Shown here one piece after another: positions 13,983 through 34,013 of a DNA stretch of 64,000 bases. Source of the DNA: Mycobacterium sp. (lineage in GTDB: Bacteria; Actinomycetota; Actinomycetes; Mycobacteriales; Mycobacteriaceae); the NCBI RefSeq assembly GCF_029961025.1, contig NZ_JASBVP010000003.1, positions 1 through 64,000 on the forward strand, in the 5' to 3' direction. The notes under the pieces are model-generated. The model was not told the origin of the DNA. It did no database searches and saw only the letters and a list, made by a program, of their open reading frames with translations. How positions within the stretch are numbered: position 1 is the first letter of the stretch; every line of letters starts with the position of its first letter. A program made the position numbers and the translations under genes.

Positions 13983-15318
13983 GAGATCCAATCTGATCAC
14001 CTGCACCTGATTCCGGTCTAACCCCGGTCTAACCCCAATGCCGGGTAGTTAAGGCGCCGCAGAAGCTGTCAATGTCACACGCGGGGCATATGGGTCTCGT
14101 GTTGCTAAGGATATGGGTGCGACTCCTGGTAGAAGAACGGTCGACGAAGATCCACTTCTGCCACCGAGGAGTCGCAGTGCCGAATTCTGCCATGTCCGCG
14201 TCTCGTGAGGAGCTTTTCGCTGCTGGTCATCTGGGCGAACTCACCTGGCAGATCCCGGTTGAGCTGGTGGACGCGGTGCTGGCCGAGACCGGCAGCGTCC
14301 AACGGCGGCTGCGTGTGCTGCCGTCACGGGTGGGGGTGTATTTCGTGCTCGCGCTGTGCCTGTTCCCCGGGCTGGGCTACCGCAAGGTCTGGGCCAAGCT
14401 CACCGCCGCCCTACCAGGCCGCAAGCCGCTGTCGGGCAAGGCGCTTCGAGATCTGCGTCGCCGTCTGGGGGCAGCGCCGATGCGGGCGCTGTTTGAGGTG
14501 CTGGCCGGTCCGGTCGCCGCGCCGCACACCCCCGGCGTGCGATTCGGGCGTTTCCGTACTGTGGCGTTCGACGGGTGTGTGTCGTTCAAGGTCGCCGACA
14601 GCGACCGCAACCGGTCGTGGCTGGGCAAGCTCAAGGCCGCGCTCGGGACCACCGGCTATCCGGTAGTGAGGCTGATGACCCTGGTGGAGACCGGTACCCG
14701 GGCATTGCTGGGCGCGGTCTTCGGGCCGACCGCCACCAGCGAGACCGACTACGCGTGCAAGCTTTTTGGACTGCTCGGCCCTGACATGCTGGTGCTGGCC
14801 GACCGCGGGTTCAACTCCGAGGCATTCCTGACCGACCTGGCCGCCACTGGCGCGCACTTCCTGATCCGGCTGACCATCACCCGCCGGCTACCGATGCTGG
14901 CGCGCCTCGACGATGGCTCCTATCTGTCGCGCATCGGCGCGCTGCCGGTTCGGGTTATCACCGCCGAGGTCACCGTCACCTGCGCCGAGGGCACCCGCTA
15001 CACCGCAAGCTACCGGCTGGCCACCACCCTGCTCGACCCACGCCGCTATCCCGCCCACCGGCTCGGGGCCCTCTACCACGAACGCTGGGAACACGAGATT
15101 GCCTACCTGGCGCTGCGCCACACGCTCGCCAAGGGCCGGGTCCTGCGATCCACCGACCCAGCCGGACTCGAACAAGAAATGTGGGCACTACTGGCCCTAT
15201 ACCAAGCGCTGCGACGCGCCATGGCCACCGCTGTCGAATCCCGCCCCGGCCTCGACCCAGACCGGGCCAGCTTCACCACCGCACTCGAAACCGCCAAAAA
15301 TCTCCCAGTGAGGCCAGC

Positions 15319-15391
15319 CTCGGACCGCCGAGGTGGGTGGTCGGGTTGGGTGGGTCGTTGCGGTTGGCTGGTGGTTGAGTGGCGGTCCGAG
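15319..15391 (+). other. Left-end structure of the unassigned element: 11-bp inverted repeat enclosing a canonical G4 motif
   Basis: CTCGGACCGCC (15319-15329) / GGCGGTCCGAG (15381-15391); GGGTGGTCGGGTTGGGTGGG at 15335-15354; smaller hairpin CCTCGG-ACCG-CCGAGG nested at the left. Confidence 0.75.
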
Positions 15392-15466
15392 CCTGCCCTC
15401 ACGCTCCGAAGCCGCCGCCAGGCTGGGCGCTGGTCAGGATCGCTTTGACCGAGCAGGCTGAGGATC

Positions 15467-17086
15467 ATGGCTGCGGTTGTGACGGTCAACGATGTCCTTG
15501 ATGGGCATGTGGTCCTGGATGTGGAGTGCATGGATCGGATCTATCTGAACGGCTATGTGCCTAATCTGCAGGTGGGCGGGCAGGTGGTGTCGTTTATGAC
15601 CGCGCATCTGGGCTATCCGATCCCCTCTCCGGCGATCATTGAAAAGATCGGCGCGACGTTTCGCAAAGCTGTGGAGCGCTTCGCCGTCGGCAATGAGATC
15701 CCGCTGGTGCGGTTCTCCAAGGACGACCGCAAGATCGAGGTGATGCGCCCATATCTGGCTCGCCAGGCGCGCACCGGCCAATCCGGCGTGGCCGCGATCG
15801 GCACCGCCCAGGAGTTTCAGAACGTGTTCGCCTCGGCAAAACATATCGGCAACAACGGTGTTCCATGGTTTTCGTTTTGCAAGGCCGACCGGCGGGTGTC
15901 GTGTTTTTATTTGTATGTCTGGGATGTCGATTTCGGGCCGGCGTTCATCAAGGTCTGCACCTATTTCCCCTACCCGATCAAGGTGTGGCTCAATGGCCAC
16001 GAGTACGCAAAACGCCAGGCCAGCCAGGCCGGTATCGATTTCACCGAGCTGTCCAACGGGTTTGCCAGTTGTGCGGATCCCGTCGCGCTGCAAGCCATCT
16101 GTGACCGGCTGGGCCCAGGGGCGATCATGGTGTTCTTCGAGCGTTGGATGAGCCGGCTGCCATTGCCGCTGACCGATACCGATCGCGCCGCGGGCTACTG
16201 GTGGGAACTGTCGATGCGCCAGATCGAGGTCTCACGCACCCTGGTGTTCGACGCCCCACGGCACGCCCGCTCGTTTTTTGAATCCTTGGTCGCCGACAAC
16301 CTCGACATCGGCCGCCCCGACAGTGTGGAACTGATCTTCCACGGCCCCCGACGCCCGGGCAGGCCCCCAAAAATCGACTGTGTGCCAAAAACGAAGATCG
16401 TCACCCGCGGCACCGACGTGACCGTCAACGCCTTCTACAAAAGCTCGCGCATCAAGCAGTACTTGAAACACGAGCGGGCGCTGCGGGTCGAGACCGTCAT
16501 CAACTCACCCGATGACCTGCGCTGCCAGCGGCGCCTGGTCCATCTCGACGAGCTGGCCGCCCGCGCACGTGCAATCAATCGCCGCCTGCTCGATACTGAA
16601 CGTGTCGGCCAGGGCTGTGTCCTTGCGAGTCCAGCCTTTGAGCGGATCGCGCGGCCCACCCTCACCGAGGATGGCAGGAGGACCCCGGCCTTACGGTTCG
16701 GCGATCCTCGGGTAAAAGCCCTGGCCGGCGCCCTGTGCACGACGATGCTCGCCGTCACCGGCATCACCAACAAGAGCCTGCGCGCCTTGATGACCGGACT
16801 GCTCGACGGCACCGCCTACACCATGAACCAGGCCAGCTACGACCTGACCCGGTTACGTGTCAACGGCCTGATCACCCGAATCCCGGGCCGCAACCTGTAT
16901 CGCCTCACCCCCGACGGGCTGCGGTTCGCGATCTTCTACACCAAACTGCACAACCGCCTGCTGCGCCCCCTCCTCGCAGCAAACCAACCACCTGCACCAC
17001 CGGCACTGCGAAACGCATTGCTTACCATTGAAACTCACGTCACTGAACGCATCGACAACGCCCGCCTCCTGCCAAGGGCCGCCTGA
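15467..17086 (+). CDS. 539-aa protein of the unassigned mobile element; candidate transposase/recombinase of unknown mechanism
   Basis: Only long ORF of the element; identical protein encoded by copy 2; C-terminal part resembles a winged-helix region (TNKSLRALMTGLL..MNQASYDLTRLRVNGLITRIPGRNLYRLTPDGLR). Confidence 0.75.
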   Translation: MAAVVTVNDVLDGHVVLDVECMDRIYLNGYVPNLQVGGQVVSFMTAHLGYPIPSPAIIEKIGATFRKAVERFAVGNEIPLVRFSKDDRKIEVMRPYLARQARTGQSGVAAIGTAQEFQNVFASAKHIGNNGVPWFSFCKADRRVSCFYLYVWDVDFGPAFIKVCTYFPYPIKVWLNGHEYAKRQASQAGIDFTELSNGFASCADPVALQAICDRLGPGAIMVFFERWMSRLPLPLTDTDRAAGYWWELSMRQIEVSRTLVFDAPRHARSFFESLVADNLDIGRPDSVELIFHGPRRPGRPPKIDCVPKTKIVTRGTDVTVNAFYKSSRIKQYLKHERALRVETVINSPDDLRCQRRLVHLDELAARARAINRRLLDTERVGQGCVLASPAFERIARPTLTEDGRRTPALRFGDPRVKALAGALCTTMLAVTGITNKSLRALMTGLLDGTAYTMNQASYDLTRLRVNGLITRIPGRNLYRLTPDGLRFAIFYTKLHNRLLRPLLAANQPPAPPALRNALLTIETHVTERIDNARLLPRAA

Positions 17087-17109
17087 AAACTCAAGACAAC
17101 CTCAAAGTC

Positions 17110-17130
17110 CTAGCGACCAAGGGTCGCTAG
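17110..17130 (+). other. Right-end hairpin of the unassigned element
   Basis: CTAGCGACC-AAG-GGTCGCTAG, perfect 9-bp stem with 3-nt loop; same hairpin at 30338-30358 in copy 2. Confidence 0.9.
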
Positions 17131-17720
17131 TCAACGCCGTCAACGTGACCGACGACACCGACCTCGTCGGCCACATCGGCCGCGCCGTCCTGGCCGATCT
17201 GCTCCCGCCGCGGCGGCCCCGCACCAGCGTCCGCAAGGTCAAATCTCCCCTGTCGCGCTACAACAAAAAGGACCCCTACCGGCCCGAAAACAGCACCACG
17301 ATCACCAGCCTGACCATGACCATCAACGACCCCGAACCCAAACACGCGACACGCGAACCGAAGTCCTTGACAACCGCCCTGGGGCCTTAACTACCCGGCA
17401 TTGGGTCTAACCCGAGGTTGCTGCTCGCAACTTCGGTCTAACCAGCCGGTCACCAGCGGCGTCACCCGCTTCGACGCCGACGCCGACTACCGCACCTGCA
17501 CCGCTGCCGACGGCAGCCCGAGCGCGGGGCGTCCGGCGATCGTCGCCAGCGGTACGGGGCGCATTCATCGCTGCCGCCCACCGTCCCCACCGCGCCAGCG
17601 AGCAACGTTCGCTGGAGAGCGACACCGACAGCGACACCGGTGGCTGGTGCAATACGCCGCGCTTCAGCCCTAAGGTTCCGCCTACAGATCACGGGCGGAC
17701 AGCAAATCGTTTTGTACGTC

Positions 17721-28900: not shown

Positions 28901-30341
28901 AGTCACCGCGACCGGCGGTGTCGTCGGCTCCGAATATGTGTCATTGCCATGCTACGGGGTTCCGCGACAAGCCCCTGACCAATCCGGCAACCCCGGCACG
29001 CTGCCCGCCAAGCAGTTCGACACCTTTAACGACCTCACCCTTAACGCCACCGGAGGACCCGTTCAGGACACCTTCTACGGGGCTTTCCTCGACATCAACC
29101 AGTCCGCCAACGCGCTGCCCCACCCTGTGCCCGCCGGCAACCCCGATGGCCCGTGGCCACCCGGCACAGCGGGAAACAGCGATCTGGAGCCGCTGGCAAA
29201 GGCGTTTGCTCGCAACGACCACCATTGCGTCGTAGCTGAGATCGCATTCGACCCCGTGGCCATCGCGGACGGCACCCAGCCGTTCAACTCCGACAAACTT
29301 GCCCAACGCAACCTCGCCTGGAGCACGGTCGCCAATCCCGGCACCCACGCCTCTCGCATCGCTTTCCAGAACTTCGAGGTGCGACCCTCCCCGGTGTCGC
29401 TGCAGGCGGGTGATACGCCCGACGAAATCCTGATTGACTGGAACACCGTCCCCGCGGGCAGCACCGCCGAAATCTATCTGCCCGCTGTTGATGCTGACGC
29501 GGTCATCGCCACCGCCGACCGACTCTATCCCCATCGGCTGACCCGGGTCGACGCGCACACAATCGGCGTCCCAGCTGGTGGGCTCACCTACATCCCGCTG
29601 CCCACCGGTGTGGCTGGCGGCGCCAACTTCGCCGGCCTCATCTCCGTGGAGCTTCCAGCGGGCATCCGGGCCGGAGAACTCCACACACTCACCGTTCACC
29701 AACTAACCCGCGCGACAGCTGACATCACGCCGCCGCCGCCACCACCGCAAATCCAGATCGAAGCGGTCGTCGCGAGAAACAACAAATCGAGTGATCCCAG
29801 CAACACGATCAGTTGGCGCACGGTGCTCGGCAGCTTCCAAATCAATGTGCCCGTGAGCACCAAACAGCTCATGCTGCCAAAGGAAGAGATCCGGCTGTCG
29901 ATCTTCCGCTGGATCGCCCAATCAATCGCACCAAGCGAACGCTGGTACCCCGTGTTTCAACGCTTTCTGGGTCTGCTGGCCAACAAGGTCGCCGACCTCG
30001 GCGGCAATCCCGACCAAATCACGCCATCCGCCAACGGCTTCGACGGCATCCCCGGCAAGCACAAACCCCGCCCGCCGGTGCATGAAGGGTTCGAATATGG
30101 CGGTGTCACCGGCAAGATCGACGGTCTGCTGTTCGACCACTTCGGCGATTTCGAAGGCTTCGTGCTCGAACTGTTCCACGGGACTAAGCGCAAATTCGCC
30201 AGCCGACAACGCGACATCGAAACCCTCGCCCGCGCCGCGTTTGAGCACCGCACTCTCGTCACCGTCAGTCACACAGAACATGACCCCGAAGCCGTATGCA
30301 CACTCGCGTTCAGAACACGCGCACCGTGGCGCCATGACTAG
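25926..30341 (+). CDS. Large (1471 aa) BNR/sortilin-type beta-propeller (exo-sialidase-like repeat) protein; C-terminus altered by the copy 2 element
   Basis: Repeated ..STNAGQDW, SIDGGTSWKQI, TTNGGTNWSPL, TTNSGASWNDI, SDDIGATWAKW motifs; TAG stop belongs to the element. Confidence 0.8.
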   Translation: MSGVTLSTATWTPIGPAPVNTADARKMISGRVQAAATDPTAPDTVYLGADGGGVWKNINPPSWTPLTDQQPSLQFGTGFSYHPLVVHPAEHNLVLGLVSGPGAGILKSTNAGQDWQLLANSQFNDQQLLSLAVHPTDTNTMFLAAGWDGAWKSIDGGTSWKQISGGLPANGFVCDLIIANFDPSTLYAAVIGFRSATQQAQNGVYQSTDGQGAVWTQLSGGLPSGAALGVQDAKGNTADGAVRIESGSGAGVVYVSMLTVGTDPTKGVTAVQRFRTTNGGTNWSPLAASPGGLEARSWHLLLAVDPGNDNHIFVNDAYSLFESTNAGQNWAPADAGIGYDYVNLTFDANGQAVVTGDQGVWRYDAATQSLTSRIEDLEVSEFYTICLDPSTAGVAYAIGQDIGSAKFSGQTEWQAIGGVGETGKIVVNPNNTSELFGFNPLDTNNFVVTSPDAAKTWKTVFPASKLSAAFLKTYNTSGGYAFAYLSQKAFAMDPSNPARLLVVADRVFETTNSGASWNDISGVLSQDKNNPFVAALAIAPSDPNTVYASTQDGHLWVTHDDGATKWTQLDTGLSGVAIDIRVDPNDANHAFAVAGNNVWHLPSSATTWVNITGSIPNDLGLYTVFVWWQPTGSTLFVGTDRGIYRSDDIGATWAKWVVAGLPNVRVNDLQGETLNGQLLLAAATFGRGAWEIPVVARAVNFELHRDHYGQDEIDALRNQSLTHDAVVGGGPAQSPICVTVDGFTARELGVTGPGSYTVGPQITFNPPTGVNGGLPVNPVSLDSTEGSFPPDDLQRFRFHYNVDFGTDDSAFNFSGLTEEVDLSATYQGLTAQGQVTFMKQPDPFIMQGAQTWWLSSDVRLIQVAQGDSAFGVPMGTDPFQFLQELTTTLTKYQGRVPVGGGVIESFDDNIDEQQEMITVAPLVERGFLNFVPVFNFAIARVHYQALIQPASHVRVFFRLFGGNSTDTSFHVGSTYRRVPATYPVPPANYGQPVTATGGVVGSEYVSLPCYGVPRQAPDQSGNPGTLPAKQFDTFNDLTLNATGGPVQDTFYGAFLDINQSANALPHPVPAGNPDGPWPPGTAGNSDLEPLAKAFARNDHHCVVAEIAFDPVAIADGTQPFNSDKLAQRNLAWSTVANPGTHASRIAFQNFEVRPSPVSLQAGDTPDEILIDWNTVPAGSTAEIYLPAVDADAVIATADRLYPHRLTRVDAHTIGVPAGGLTYIPLPTGVAGGANFAGLISVELPAGIRAGELHTLTVHQLTRATADITPPPPPPQIQIEAVVARNNKSSDPSNTISWRTVLGSFQINVPVSTKQLMLPKEEIRLSIFRWIAQSIAPSERWYPVFQRFLGLLANKVADLGGNPDQITPSANGFDGIPGKHKPRPPVHEGFEYGGVTGKIDGLLFDHFGDFEGFVLELFHGTKRKFASRQRDIETLARAAFEHRTLVTVSHTEHDPEAVCTLAFRTRAPWRHD

Positions 30342-31142
30342 CGACCCTTGGTCGCTAGGACTTTGAGGTTGTCTTGAGTTTTCAGGCGGCCCTTGGCAGG
30401 AGGCGGGCGTTGTCGATGCGTTCAGTGACGTGAGTTTCAATGGTAAGCAATGCGTTTCGCAGTGCCGGTGGTGCAGGTGGTTGGTTTGCTGCGAGGAGGG
30501 GGCGCAGCAGGCGGTTGTGCAGTTTGGTGTAGAAGATCGCGAACCGCAGCCCGTCGGGGGTGAGGCGATACAGGTTGCGGCCCGGGATTCGGGTGATCAG
30601 GCCGTTGACACGTAACCGGGTCAGGTCGTAGCTGGCCTGGTTCATGGTGTAGGCGGTGCCGTCGAGCAGTCCGGTCATCAAGGCGCGCAGGCTCTTGTTG
30701 GTGATGCCGGTGACGGCGAGCATCGTCGTGCACAGGGCGCCGGCCAGGGCTTTTACCCGAGGATCGCCGAACCGTAAGGCCGGGGTCCTCCTGCCATCCT
30801 CGGTGAGGGTGGGCCGCGCGATCCGCTCAAAGGCTGGACTCGCAAGGACACAGCCCTGGCCGACACGTTCAGTATCGAGCAGGCGGCGATTGATTGCACG
30901 TGCGCGGGCGGCCAGCTCGTCGAGATGGACCAGGCGCCGCTGGCAGCGCAGGTCATCGGGTGAGTTGATGACGGTCTCGACCCGCAGCGCCCGCTCGTGT
31001 TTCAAGTACTGCTTGATGCGCGAGCTTTTGTAGAAGGCGTTGACGGTCACGTCGGTGCCGCGGGTGACGATCTTCGTTTTTGGCACACTGAATCGCCCTG
31101 GAAATGCTGGAGGCTCCAGACCTTGGAATCGAGGATGGAGTC

Positions 31143-31490
31143 ATGCCGAAGAAACAGTCACCGCCGAGCAAGCCGACGAGTCGCCGCTACAGCGCCGAGC
31201 AAAAGGCCGGAGCGGTACGGATGGTCCGGACATTACGGGCGGAGTTGGGTAGCGACCACGGCGTTGTCGCCCGGGTCGCCGATCAGCTTGGCTACGGGGT
31301 GGAGTCGGTGCGGACCTGGGTGCGCCAGGCCGACATCGACGACGGCTATCAGCCCGGGGTGTCGACCACCGAGGCGCGACGCATGAAGGAACTCGAACAG
31401 GAGAATCGAGAACTCAAGCGCGCCAACGAGATACTGAAACGAGCGGCGAGTTTCTTCGGGGCGGAGCTCGACCGCCAACACAAGAAATAG
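31143..31490 (+). CDS. IS3 transposase OrfA (helix-turn-helix)
   Basis: SRRYSAEQKAGAVRMVRTLRAE..ELEQENRELKRANEILKRAASFFGAELDRQHKK; OrfB is in the -1 frame. Confidence 0.85.
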   Translation: MPKKQSPPSKPTSRRYSAEQKAGAVRMVRTLRAELGSDHGVVARVADQLGYGVESVRTWVRQADIDDGYQPGVSTTEARRMKELEQENRELKRANEILKRAASFFGAELDRQHKK

Positions 31491-31543
31491 TCGACTTCAT
31501 CGACGCCAACCGGGAAGAATTCGGGGTCGAGCCCATCTGCACC

Positions 31544-32407
31544 GTGCTGCACAGCGCAGGCGTGTCGGTGGCCCCGAGCACCTACTACGCTGCCAAGAAA
31601 CGCGGCCCGTCGAAACGAGCCTGCCGGGATGCGGTCATGGGTCCGGTCCTGGTCAAGCTCTTCGAGGACAACTACAGCGTCTACGGCGCCCGTAAGCTGC
31701 ACAAAGCCGCCGTCAGGGCCGGCCACGACATCGGCCGCGACCAGGTAGCGCGGCTGATGCGCGCCGCCGGCATCGCCGGGGTGCGCCGCGGCAAGAAGGT
31801 CCGCACCACCCGACCTGAAGAAGGTGCCCAACGCCACCCGGACCTGGTCAAGCGGAACTTCACCGCAGACGCCCCCAACCAGCTGTGGGTGACCGATCTG
31901 ACGTTCGTGCCCACCTGGGCTGGGGTGGCCTACGTCTGCTTCATCATCGACGTGTTCAGCCGGATGATCGTCGGCTGGCGGGTGGCCTCGAACATGCGCA
32001 CCACGATGGTGCTTGATGCCATTGAGATGGCCCGCTGGTCGCGCGGAGCTGTGTTGGCGGGCTTGCGCTGTCACTCAGACGCCGGCAGCCAGTTCACCTC
32101 GCTTCGCTATACCGAGCGCCTCGCCGAGATCGGCGCAGTGCCCTCGATCGGCACCGTAGGCGACAGCTACGACAACGCTCTGGCCGAGACCGTCAACGGC
32201 TACTACAAGGCCGAGCTGATCTACGGTCCCGCGCGGCCCGGCCCGTGGAAGACCGTCGAAGACGTCGAGCTAGCCACCCTCGGCTGGGTGCACTGGCACA
32301 ACACCGCCCGGTTGCACGGCTACCTCGGCCACCTACCGCCAGCAGAATTCGAGGACACGTTCTACGCTGGCAGACGGACCGACCAAGCCCTGGTCGGAAT
32401 CCAATAA
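31544..32407 (+). CDS. IS3 transposase OrfB (rve integrase domain)
   Basis: PNQLWVTDLTFVPTWAGVAYVCFIIDVFSRMIVGWR..HSDAGSQFTS..DSYDNALAETVNGYYKAELI. Confidence 0.93.
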   Translation: MLHSAGVSVAPSTYYAAKKRGPSKRACRDAVMGPVLVKLFEDNYSVYGARKLHKAAVRAGHDIGRDQVARLMRAAGIAGVRRGKKVRTTRPEEGAQRHPDLVKRNFTADAPNQLWVTDLTFVPTWAGVAYVCFIIDVFSRMIVGWRVASNMRTTMVLDAIEMARWSRGAVLAGLRCHSDAGSQFTSLRYTERLAEIGAVPSIGTVGDSYDNALAETVNGYYKAELIYGPARPGPWKTVEDVELATLGWVHWHNTARLHGYLGHLPPAEFEDTFYAGRRTDQALVGIQ

Positions 32408-34013
32408 ACCGAGCCTCCATCGAACCCAGGGCGGTTCACACAGTCGATTTTTGGGGGCCTGCCCGGGCGTCGGGGGCCGTGGAAGATCAGTTCCACACTG
32501 TCGGGGCGGCCGATGTCGAGGTTGTCGGCGACCAAGGATTCAAAAAACGAGCGGGCGTGCCGTGGGGCGTCGAACACCAGGGTGCGTGAGACCTCGATCT
32601 GGCGCATCGACAGTTCCCACCAGTAGCCCGCGGCGCGATCGGTATCGGTCAGCGGCAATGGCAGCCGGCTCATCCAACGCTCGAAGAACACCATGATCGC
32701 CCCTGGGCCCAGCCGGTCACAGATGGCTTGCAGCGCGACGGGATCCGCACAACTGGCAAACCCGTTGGACAGCTCGGTGAAATCGATACCGGCCTGGCTG
32801 GCCTGGCGTTTTGCGTACTCGTGGCCATTGAGCCACACCTTGATCGGGTAGGGGAAATAGGTGCAGACCTTGATGAACGCCGGCCCGAAATCGACATCCC
32901 AGACATACAAATAAAAACACGACACCCGCCGGTCGGCCTTGCAAAACGAAAACCATGGAACACCGTTGTTGCCGATATGTTTTGCCGAGGCGAACACGTT
33001 CTGAAACTCCTGGGCGGTGCCGATCGCGGCCACGCCGGATTGGCCGGTGCGCGCCTGGCGAGCCAGATATGGGCGCATCACCTCGATCTTGCGGTCGTCC
33101 TTGGAGAACCGCACCAGCGGGATCTCATTGCCGACGGCGAAGCGCTCCACAGCTTTGCGAAACGTCGCGCCGATCTTTTCAATGATCGCCGGAGAGGGGA
33201 TCGGATAGCCCAGATGCGCGGTCATAAACGACACCACCTGCCCGCCCACCTGCAGATTAGGCACATAGCCGTTCAGATAGATCCGATCCATGCACTCCAC
33301 ATCCAGGACCACATGCCCATCAAGGACATCGTTGACCGTCACAACCGCAGCCATGATCCTCAGCCTGCTCGGTCAAAGCGATCCTGACCAGCGCCCAGCC
33401 TGGCGGCGGCTTCGGAGCGTGAGGGCAGGCTCGGACCGCCACTCAACCACCAGCCAACCGCAACGACCCACCCAACCCGACCACCCACCTCGGCGGTCCG
33501 AGGCTGGCCTCACTGGGGGAGTAACCATGAAATACATCCCGGAGCAGCACGGAGCGAGGAGTCGTGAGCGGACCCCGAAGCGATGCGAACGCGATGCGCA
33601 CAAAACCGCGGCGATGCGGGGTCATGTTCTACCGTTCGCCGTGAAGGACTTCAGGGCCCACGTCCGCGAGCTCAAACCAGCAACCCTCCGGGTTATCAGC
33701 CGAACGCTTCCGCCGATTGAGCGCGGATTCCGCAACCCCGACAACTCCGCCCCCCGGATACCATTCCACTGTACTGGCCAACAACGGACCGCAACCCAGA
33801 CTTCAGGCTGATTGCCCGGTCAAAATCGAAGAGCGCTTATTGGGGCAGCTCAGCGCCCCAGCCAGAGAGCCTAACGACTCATCAGCCTGCTCGCCGAACA
33901 CCGCAACCACCGTACATTCGACCGAACTCCCGGACCGAACAATGCCAAAGGCGGCCCAAGAACAGCTGCTGAATTCGGGCCGCTAATCCGAAAAAGCAGG
34001 TTATAGTCGGCCG

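Follow-up and report, generated by a model that had tools for sequence, protein, structure and literature searches.

Two Copies of One Segment and an Interrupted Gene

In the 64,000-nucleotide stretch of Mycobacterium sp. DNA analysed here (the window), a gene for an IS4-family transposase is interrupted by a 1.8-kb segment, and the same segment is found again elsewhere in the window. What is this segment, where exactly was it inserted, and could its one long gene move it? A first-pass annotation made from the sequence alone had proposed an undescribed mobile-element family with structured ends, neither terminal inverted repeats (TIR) nor target site duplication (TSD), and an insertion logic resembling that of IS91 or IS200/IS605. 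As described below, this general view is well supported, and the target and the right border had to be corrected.

The features of the locus are listed in Table 1. Copy 2 is itself interrupted by an IS3-family element; when this is set aside, it is identical to copy 1 over the full element, as had been noticed. The match consists of an exact prefix of 1080 bases and an exact suffix of 750 bases, overlapping by 5 bases at the IS3 insertion, which shows the TSD CAC. An ALIL pseudoknot (programmed frameshift) lies at 31445-31576 in this IS3. It was the only Rfam match, and a group I or group II intron or another known RNA was therefore rejected as an explanation of the segment. A third copy with 99.5% identity is present on another contig of the same genome (C15:9306-11101), together with two relics of the 3' end elsewhere in the genome. 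At one relic position (G000:C12:98363-98458), two diverged 17-nt units stand in tandem. With identical copies at unrelated sites, the 1.8-kb element is genuine and mobile, and it transposes as one unit with ends that are fixed and non-identical. No TIR was found and no target base is duplicated, as the first reading had it.

Table 1. Features of the element and its surroundings in the window
Feature	Position	Strand	Evidence
Element copy 1, 1822 bp	15305..17126	+	identity to copy 2; empty-site comparison with IS4 and IS630
Putative transposase, 539 aa, winged helix at C-terminus	15467..17086	+	alignment, models, pN/pS
5' end, CCAG-T-GAGGC/GCCTC hairpin and CGGACCGCCG	15305..15333	+	kept in 24 homologous left ends
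3' unit CTAGCGACCAAGGGTCG	17110..17126	+	tandem or solo in other genomes
CTAG target of copy 1, kept on 3' side	17127..17130	+	IS4 junction, IS630 empty site
IS4-family transposase, interrupted, 5' part	14072..15304	+	45-52% homologues span the junction
IS4-family transposase, interrupted, 3' part	17127..17390	+	IS4 homologue comparison
Element copy 2, IS3-containing	30342..33516	-	100% identity to copy 1 outside IS3
CTAG target of copy 2	30338..30341	-	sequence
IS3-family element within copy 2, CAC duplication	31089..32438	+	sequence; ALIL pseudoknot match

The Target Site Is CTAG

Insertion had been placed upstream of GTCA, with the right border at 17129 (1825 bp) and with CTC^GTCA and CCC^GTCA as the empty sites. 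However, homologues of the IS4 transposase have exactly one codon more at the junction than the site reconstructed in this way, and when CTAG is restored there, the residues K-N-L-L-V-N align to R-D-Q-V-I-H of the homologues. In M. pyrenivorans, an IS630 gene has a homologous element at its stop codon: an intact, 93%-identical IS630 has ACA followed by CTAG, and the occupied gene has ACA followed by CCAGTGAGGC. The arrangement ACA-CTAG is also found in most IS630 homologues, including those on three Rhodococcus plasmids, although 2 of 19 homologues from genomes have CCAG at this site, which counts against the CTAG rule. Furthermore, on a plasmid of M. riyadhense, the last base of the first element is separated from CTAG by a cousin of 26% identity.

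Taken together, the IS630 empty site, the IS4 junction and the nested cousin indicate insertion directly 5' of CTAG with nothing duplicated, or else one base in, since C^TAG would be indistinguishable. The same comparisons assign the left CYAR to the element, which thus contributes a C[CT]A[AGC] of its own on the left side, with CTAG remaining at the right; retention of the left flank as the target, in the manner of IS608, agrees with neither the IS630 empty site nor the nested cousin and was rejected. Because the target is CTAG and is kept intact on the 3' side, the borders of copy 1 are 15305-17126, a shift of 3 nt on the right, and because CTAG was the target in the IS630 gene before insertion, the empty sites in the window become CTC^CTAGTCA and CCC^CTAGTCA. 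The GTCA at copy 1 is the G of CTAG followed by a chance TCA; other copies have CTAG, then C, G or T, and then anything.

The nested cousin (NZ_OY970457.1, L083:7660-9491) represents a second element family, which has long GC-rich end hairpins and also obeys the ^CTAG rule. A left end similar to that of this cousin follows the element at another locus (L010). Two copies in P. kunmingensis have 46 bp of left flank in common. Read-through was rejected as the cause, because the stretch resembles the end of a target repeat with CTAGTGTCCCC...GGGGGACACTAG ends; this small MITE-like repeat (L011:1729-1837 and L012:1690-1837) was seemingly the target of both copies.

Hairpins at Both Ends

The proposal of hairpin ends is borne out. 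The 3' hairpin, CTAGCGACC-aag-GGTCGCTAG, is strong (z -6.3; equalled in 0 of 200 shuffles) and is flush with CTAG in the window copies, and the right ends of nearly all homologues stop at CTAG. At the other end, the readable left ends of homologues have the form C[CT]A[AGC]-N-(GAGGC..GCCTC or GGGGC..GCCCC), with 98.9% of cells in the helix paired and one compensatory pair, in one clade. The end patterns gave 11 and 20 matches in 17 genomes, versus 0 for reversed control patterns. Two independent insertions in Burkholderiales, with 91.7% and 94.3% identity in two aligned pieces, have identical limits and unrelated flanks.

Distribution of the Family

Relatives with 41-84% identity were found in Mycobacterium/Mycolicibacterium, Pseudonocardia, Rhodococcus, Arthrobacter, Cryobacterium and other Actinomycetota, and, within the same range of identity, on plasmids of Burkholderiales (Caballeronia and Paraburkholderia). 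Carriers make up about 3% of the genomes sampled at the family, order and phylum level. Many copies are decayed, as is expected for a mobile element; in Candidatus M. methanotrophicum (L018/G1156), one genome has 28 matched segments of the family, mostly decayed. The intact copies show purifying selection (pN/pS 0.26-0.48). No viral or phage relatives were found, and our literature search found no described family that matches the element. It appears to belong to an uncatalogued transposon family, with no model in Pfam, NCBIfam or PHROGs.

The 539-aa Protein

The only long gene of the element encodes the 539-aa protein, and the open reading frame is present as annotated in the first pass. A Pfam search up to an E-value of 10 gave one weak match, to a C-terminal winged helix, and this domain resembles MarR/ArsR regulators. 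Such a likeness would suit a cargo protein or a regulator, with the element being moved by a transposase encoded elsewhere. We consider this very improbable, because the gene is the sole one between the fixed ends, because gene and ends are conserved together from mycobacteria to Burkholderiales, and because the protein is under purifying selection.

Searches of NCBIfam, PHROG and PADLOC found no matching family, and PDB sequence searches gave nothing significant. A defence system was also rejected, as no PADLOC model fits. The protein did not match the Pfam families Y1, Y2/Y2_Tnp, Zn_Tnp_IS91 or Transposase_20/DEDD, and it has no HUH, DDE, DEDD or recombinase signature. The IS110/IS1111 elements, common in mycobacteria, often have neither TIR nor TSD and are similar to the present element in this respect; they differ from it in the DEDD/Transposase_20 transposase, to which the 539-aa protein has no match.

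The first-pass annotation saw no clear catalytic signature in the protein. This is correct with regard to HUH, DDE and the recombinases, but an invariant KxYxK...LRxE set had been overlooked. In an alignment reaching down to 24% identity, D23, Q252, E254, K330, Y332, K334, R340 and E342 are among the invariant residues, with the motifs QxE254, K330xY332xK334 and L339R340xE342. In the first structure model, Y332 and E342 are on adjacent strands, predicted with low confidence. Both models are of low quality (mean pLDDT 57 and 43), and the second, for which AlphaFold was given more rows, was the worse one. In Foldseek, the winged helix was matched, and the rest of these poor models had no significant PDB or viral match.

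One explanation of these results is that the element belongs to IS91 or IS200/IS605 and has diverged strongly, with its HUH domain hidden. The similar insertion logic, with hairpin ends and no TIR or TSD, agrees with this explanation. However, Pfam Y1, Y2 and IS91 remain unmatched, no HxH is conserved among the invariant columns of either alignment (A1 or A6), and Y332 lies on a predicted strand in the low-confidence model, whereas HUH tyrosines are helical. We therefore regard a hidden HUH domain as improbable.

Possible Mechanism of Transposition

The IS200/IS605 elements have a tetranucleotide target and hairpin ends and form no TSD, as is the case here, but their target word is on the 5' side and that of the present element is on the 3' side; their Y1 transposase is also not matched. 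IS91, ISCR and IS1294 (HUH Y2) are closer: they too have no TIR or TSD, a preferred tetranucleotide target and two different structured ends, and in IS1294/IS91, which has no direct repeats and the target GTTC, look-alikes of ter equal the target word (PMC5714925, PMC6052338). In IS91 and ISCR, the tetranucleotide (GTTC for IS91) is likewise retained beside one end. They differ in the target (CTAG here, GTTC/CTTG there) and in the protein, which here is unrelated, with a C-terminal winged helix and no match to HUH or to Pfam Y2/IS91. The element thus works like IS91 and yet, by the test of its protein, is not a member of IS91. Helitrons also lack TSD and have a 3' hairpin close to a terminal CTAG (PMC4778049); in contrast, they insert at AT, while CTAG is the target of the present element, which has no helicase and a protein of 539 aa instead of about 1500.

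We think it probable that the element is an autonomous one-gene transposon, whose transposase nicks a single strand through Y332 in an IS91-like rolling-circle process. The 539-aa protein would be the transposase. Y332 would nick one strand at the junction between the 3' hairpin and CTAG, which would act as the origin, and also at the 5' CYAR-hairpin, which would act as the terminator; the cut strand would then be joined to a CTAG target that has itself been nicked, following the rolling-circle scheme for IS91.

The last 17 nt of the element (CTAGCGACCAAGGATCG and variants) may be related to this process. Wherever these units occur, in tandem or solo, in element-bearing genomes, CTA(G) adjoins them. 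At some copies they are repeated in tandem 2 to 7 times, and in several element-bearing genomes solo units are found beside CTA(G) without the tail of the element (G1154:C77:55138, G215:C78:585, G442:C131:12282, G442:C274:8896 and G1160:C55:94647). The CTAG adjoining the last of these resembles the stop codon of a gene. Two routes to the 17-nt units are possible: transfer from the outer CTAG that ends at the inner CTAG, or excision via the inner CTAG. In the proposed single-strand process, an early stop at the CTAG right before the 3' hairpin would transfer the 17-nt unit alone, and such transfers could account for the 3' units in tandem as well as for the solo ones.

An alternative is site-specific recombination of double-stranded DNA. 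Here, the protein would cut the element out as a circle and recombine the two versions of a 4-bp core, CYAR in the element and CTAG in the target. This alternative also predicts the solo units, which would result if excision took place between the core on the left and the inner CTAG, and the left CYAR and the right CTAG are indeed near-identical 4-bp words, CTAG being palindromic. Nevertheless, the left word is set by the element independently of the target, the strong terminal hairpin of the window copy is on the 3' side only, and the protein has no match among the tyrosine recombinases, the serine recombinases or the IS110 DEDD family. Double-strand recombination is accordingly unlikely in our judgment, though less so than a hidden HUH domain.

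A Possible Relationship to Rep_trans Initiators

The catalytic domain may be distantly related to the Rep_trans (TBP-fold) initiators and not to HUH; this is the weaker part of the proposal. The Rep_trans initiators have, in this order, D46, D142 (RxD), R189-x-Y191-x-K193 and E214 (RxE), and their tyrosine is part of a beta strand. An archaeal branch described recently, Rep-Arvir, could be recognised by structure only and has a MarR-like winged helix. The 539-aa protein appears similar to Rep_trans (PF02486) and Rep-Arvir in the order D ... (R/Q)x(D/E) ... (R/K)xYxK ... RxE and in the strand position of the tyrosine as placed by the low-confidence model, and to Rep-Arvir also in the winged helix. 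These proteins are initiators of plasmids, phages or conjugation and not transposases, and no sequence homology to them was detectable.

The PF02486 profile did not match the protein, and no Rep_trans was found among 297 genomes in actinobacteria. The 539-aa family conserves neither motif II nor the glutamate (E) in YxKxxE, hhalign against a small Rep_trans alignment gave a probability of 0.2%, and Foldseek of the poor models found no significant match to the catalytic domain. Because the missing motif II and the hhalign and Foldseek comparisons fail to confirm the relationship, it is only tentatively that we suggest here the first transposon family with a Rep_trans-like, TBP-fold, single-tyrosine rolling-circle transposase, independent of HUH. 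Tyrosine-mediated single-strand transposition as such is held with somewhat more confidence.

The uncatalogued transposon family spans two phyla, and the simple rule of insertion before CTAG, which is sometimes the stop codon of a gene, allows the element to be annotated anywhere. The solo 17-nt units are a trace of its activity that can be read from genomes. Furthermore, if the tyrosine and TBP-fold reading is true, rolling-circle transposition would have arisen at least two times, with unrelated enzymes.
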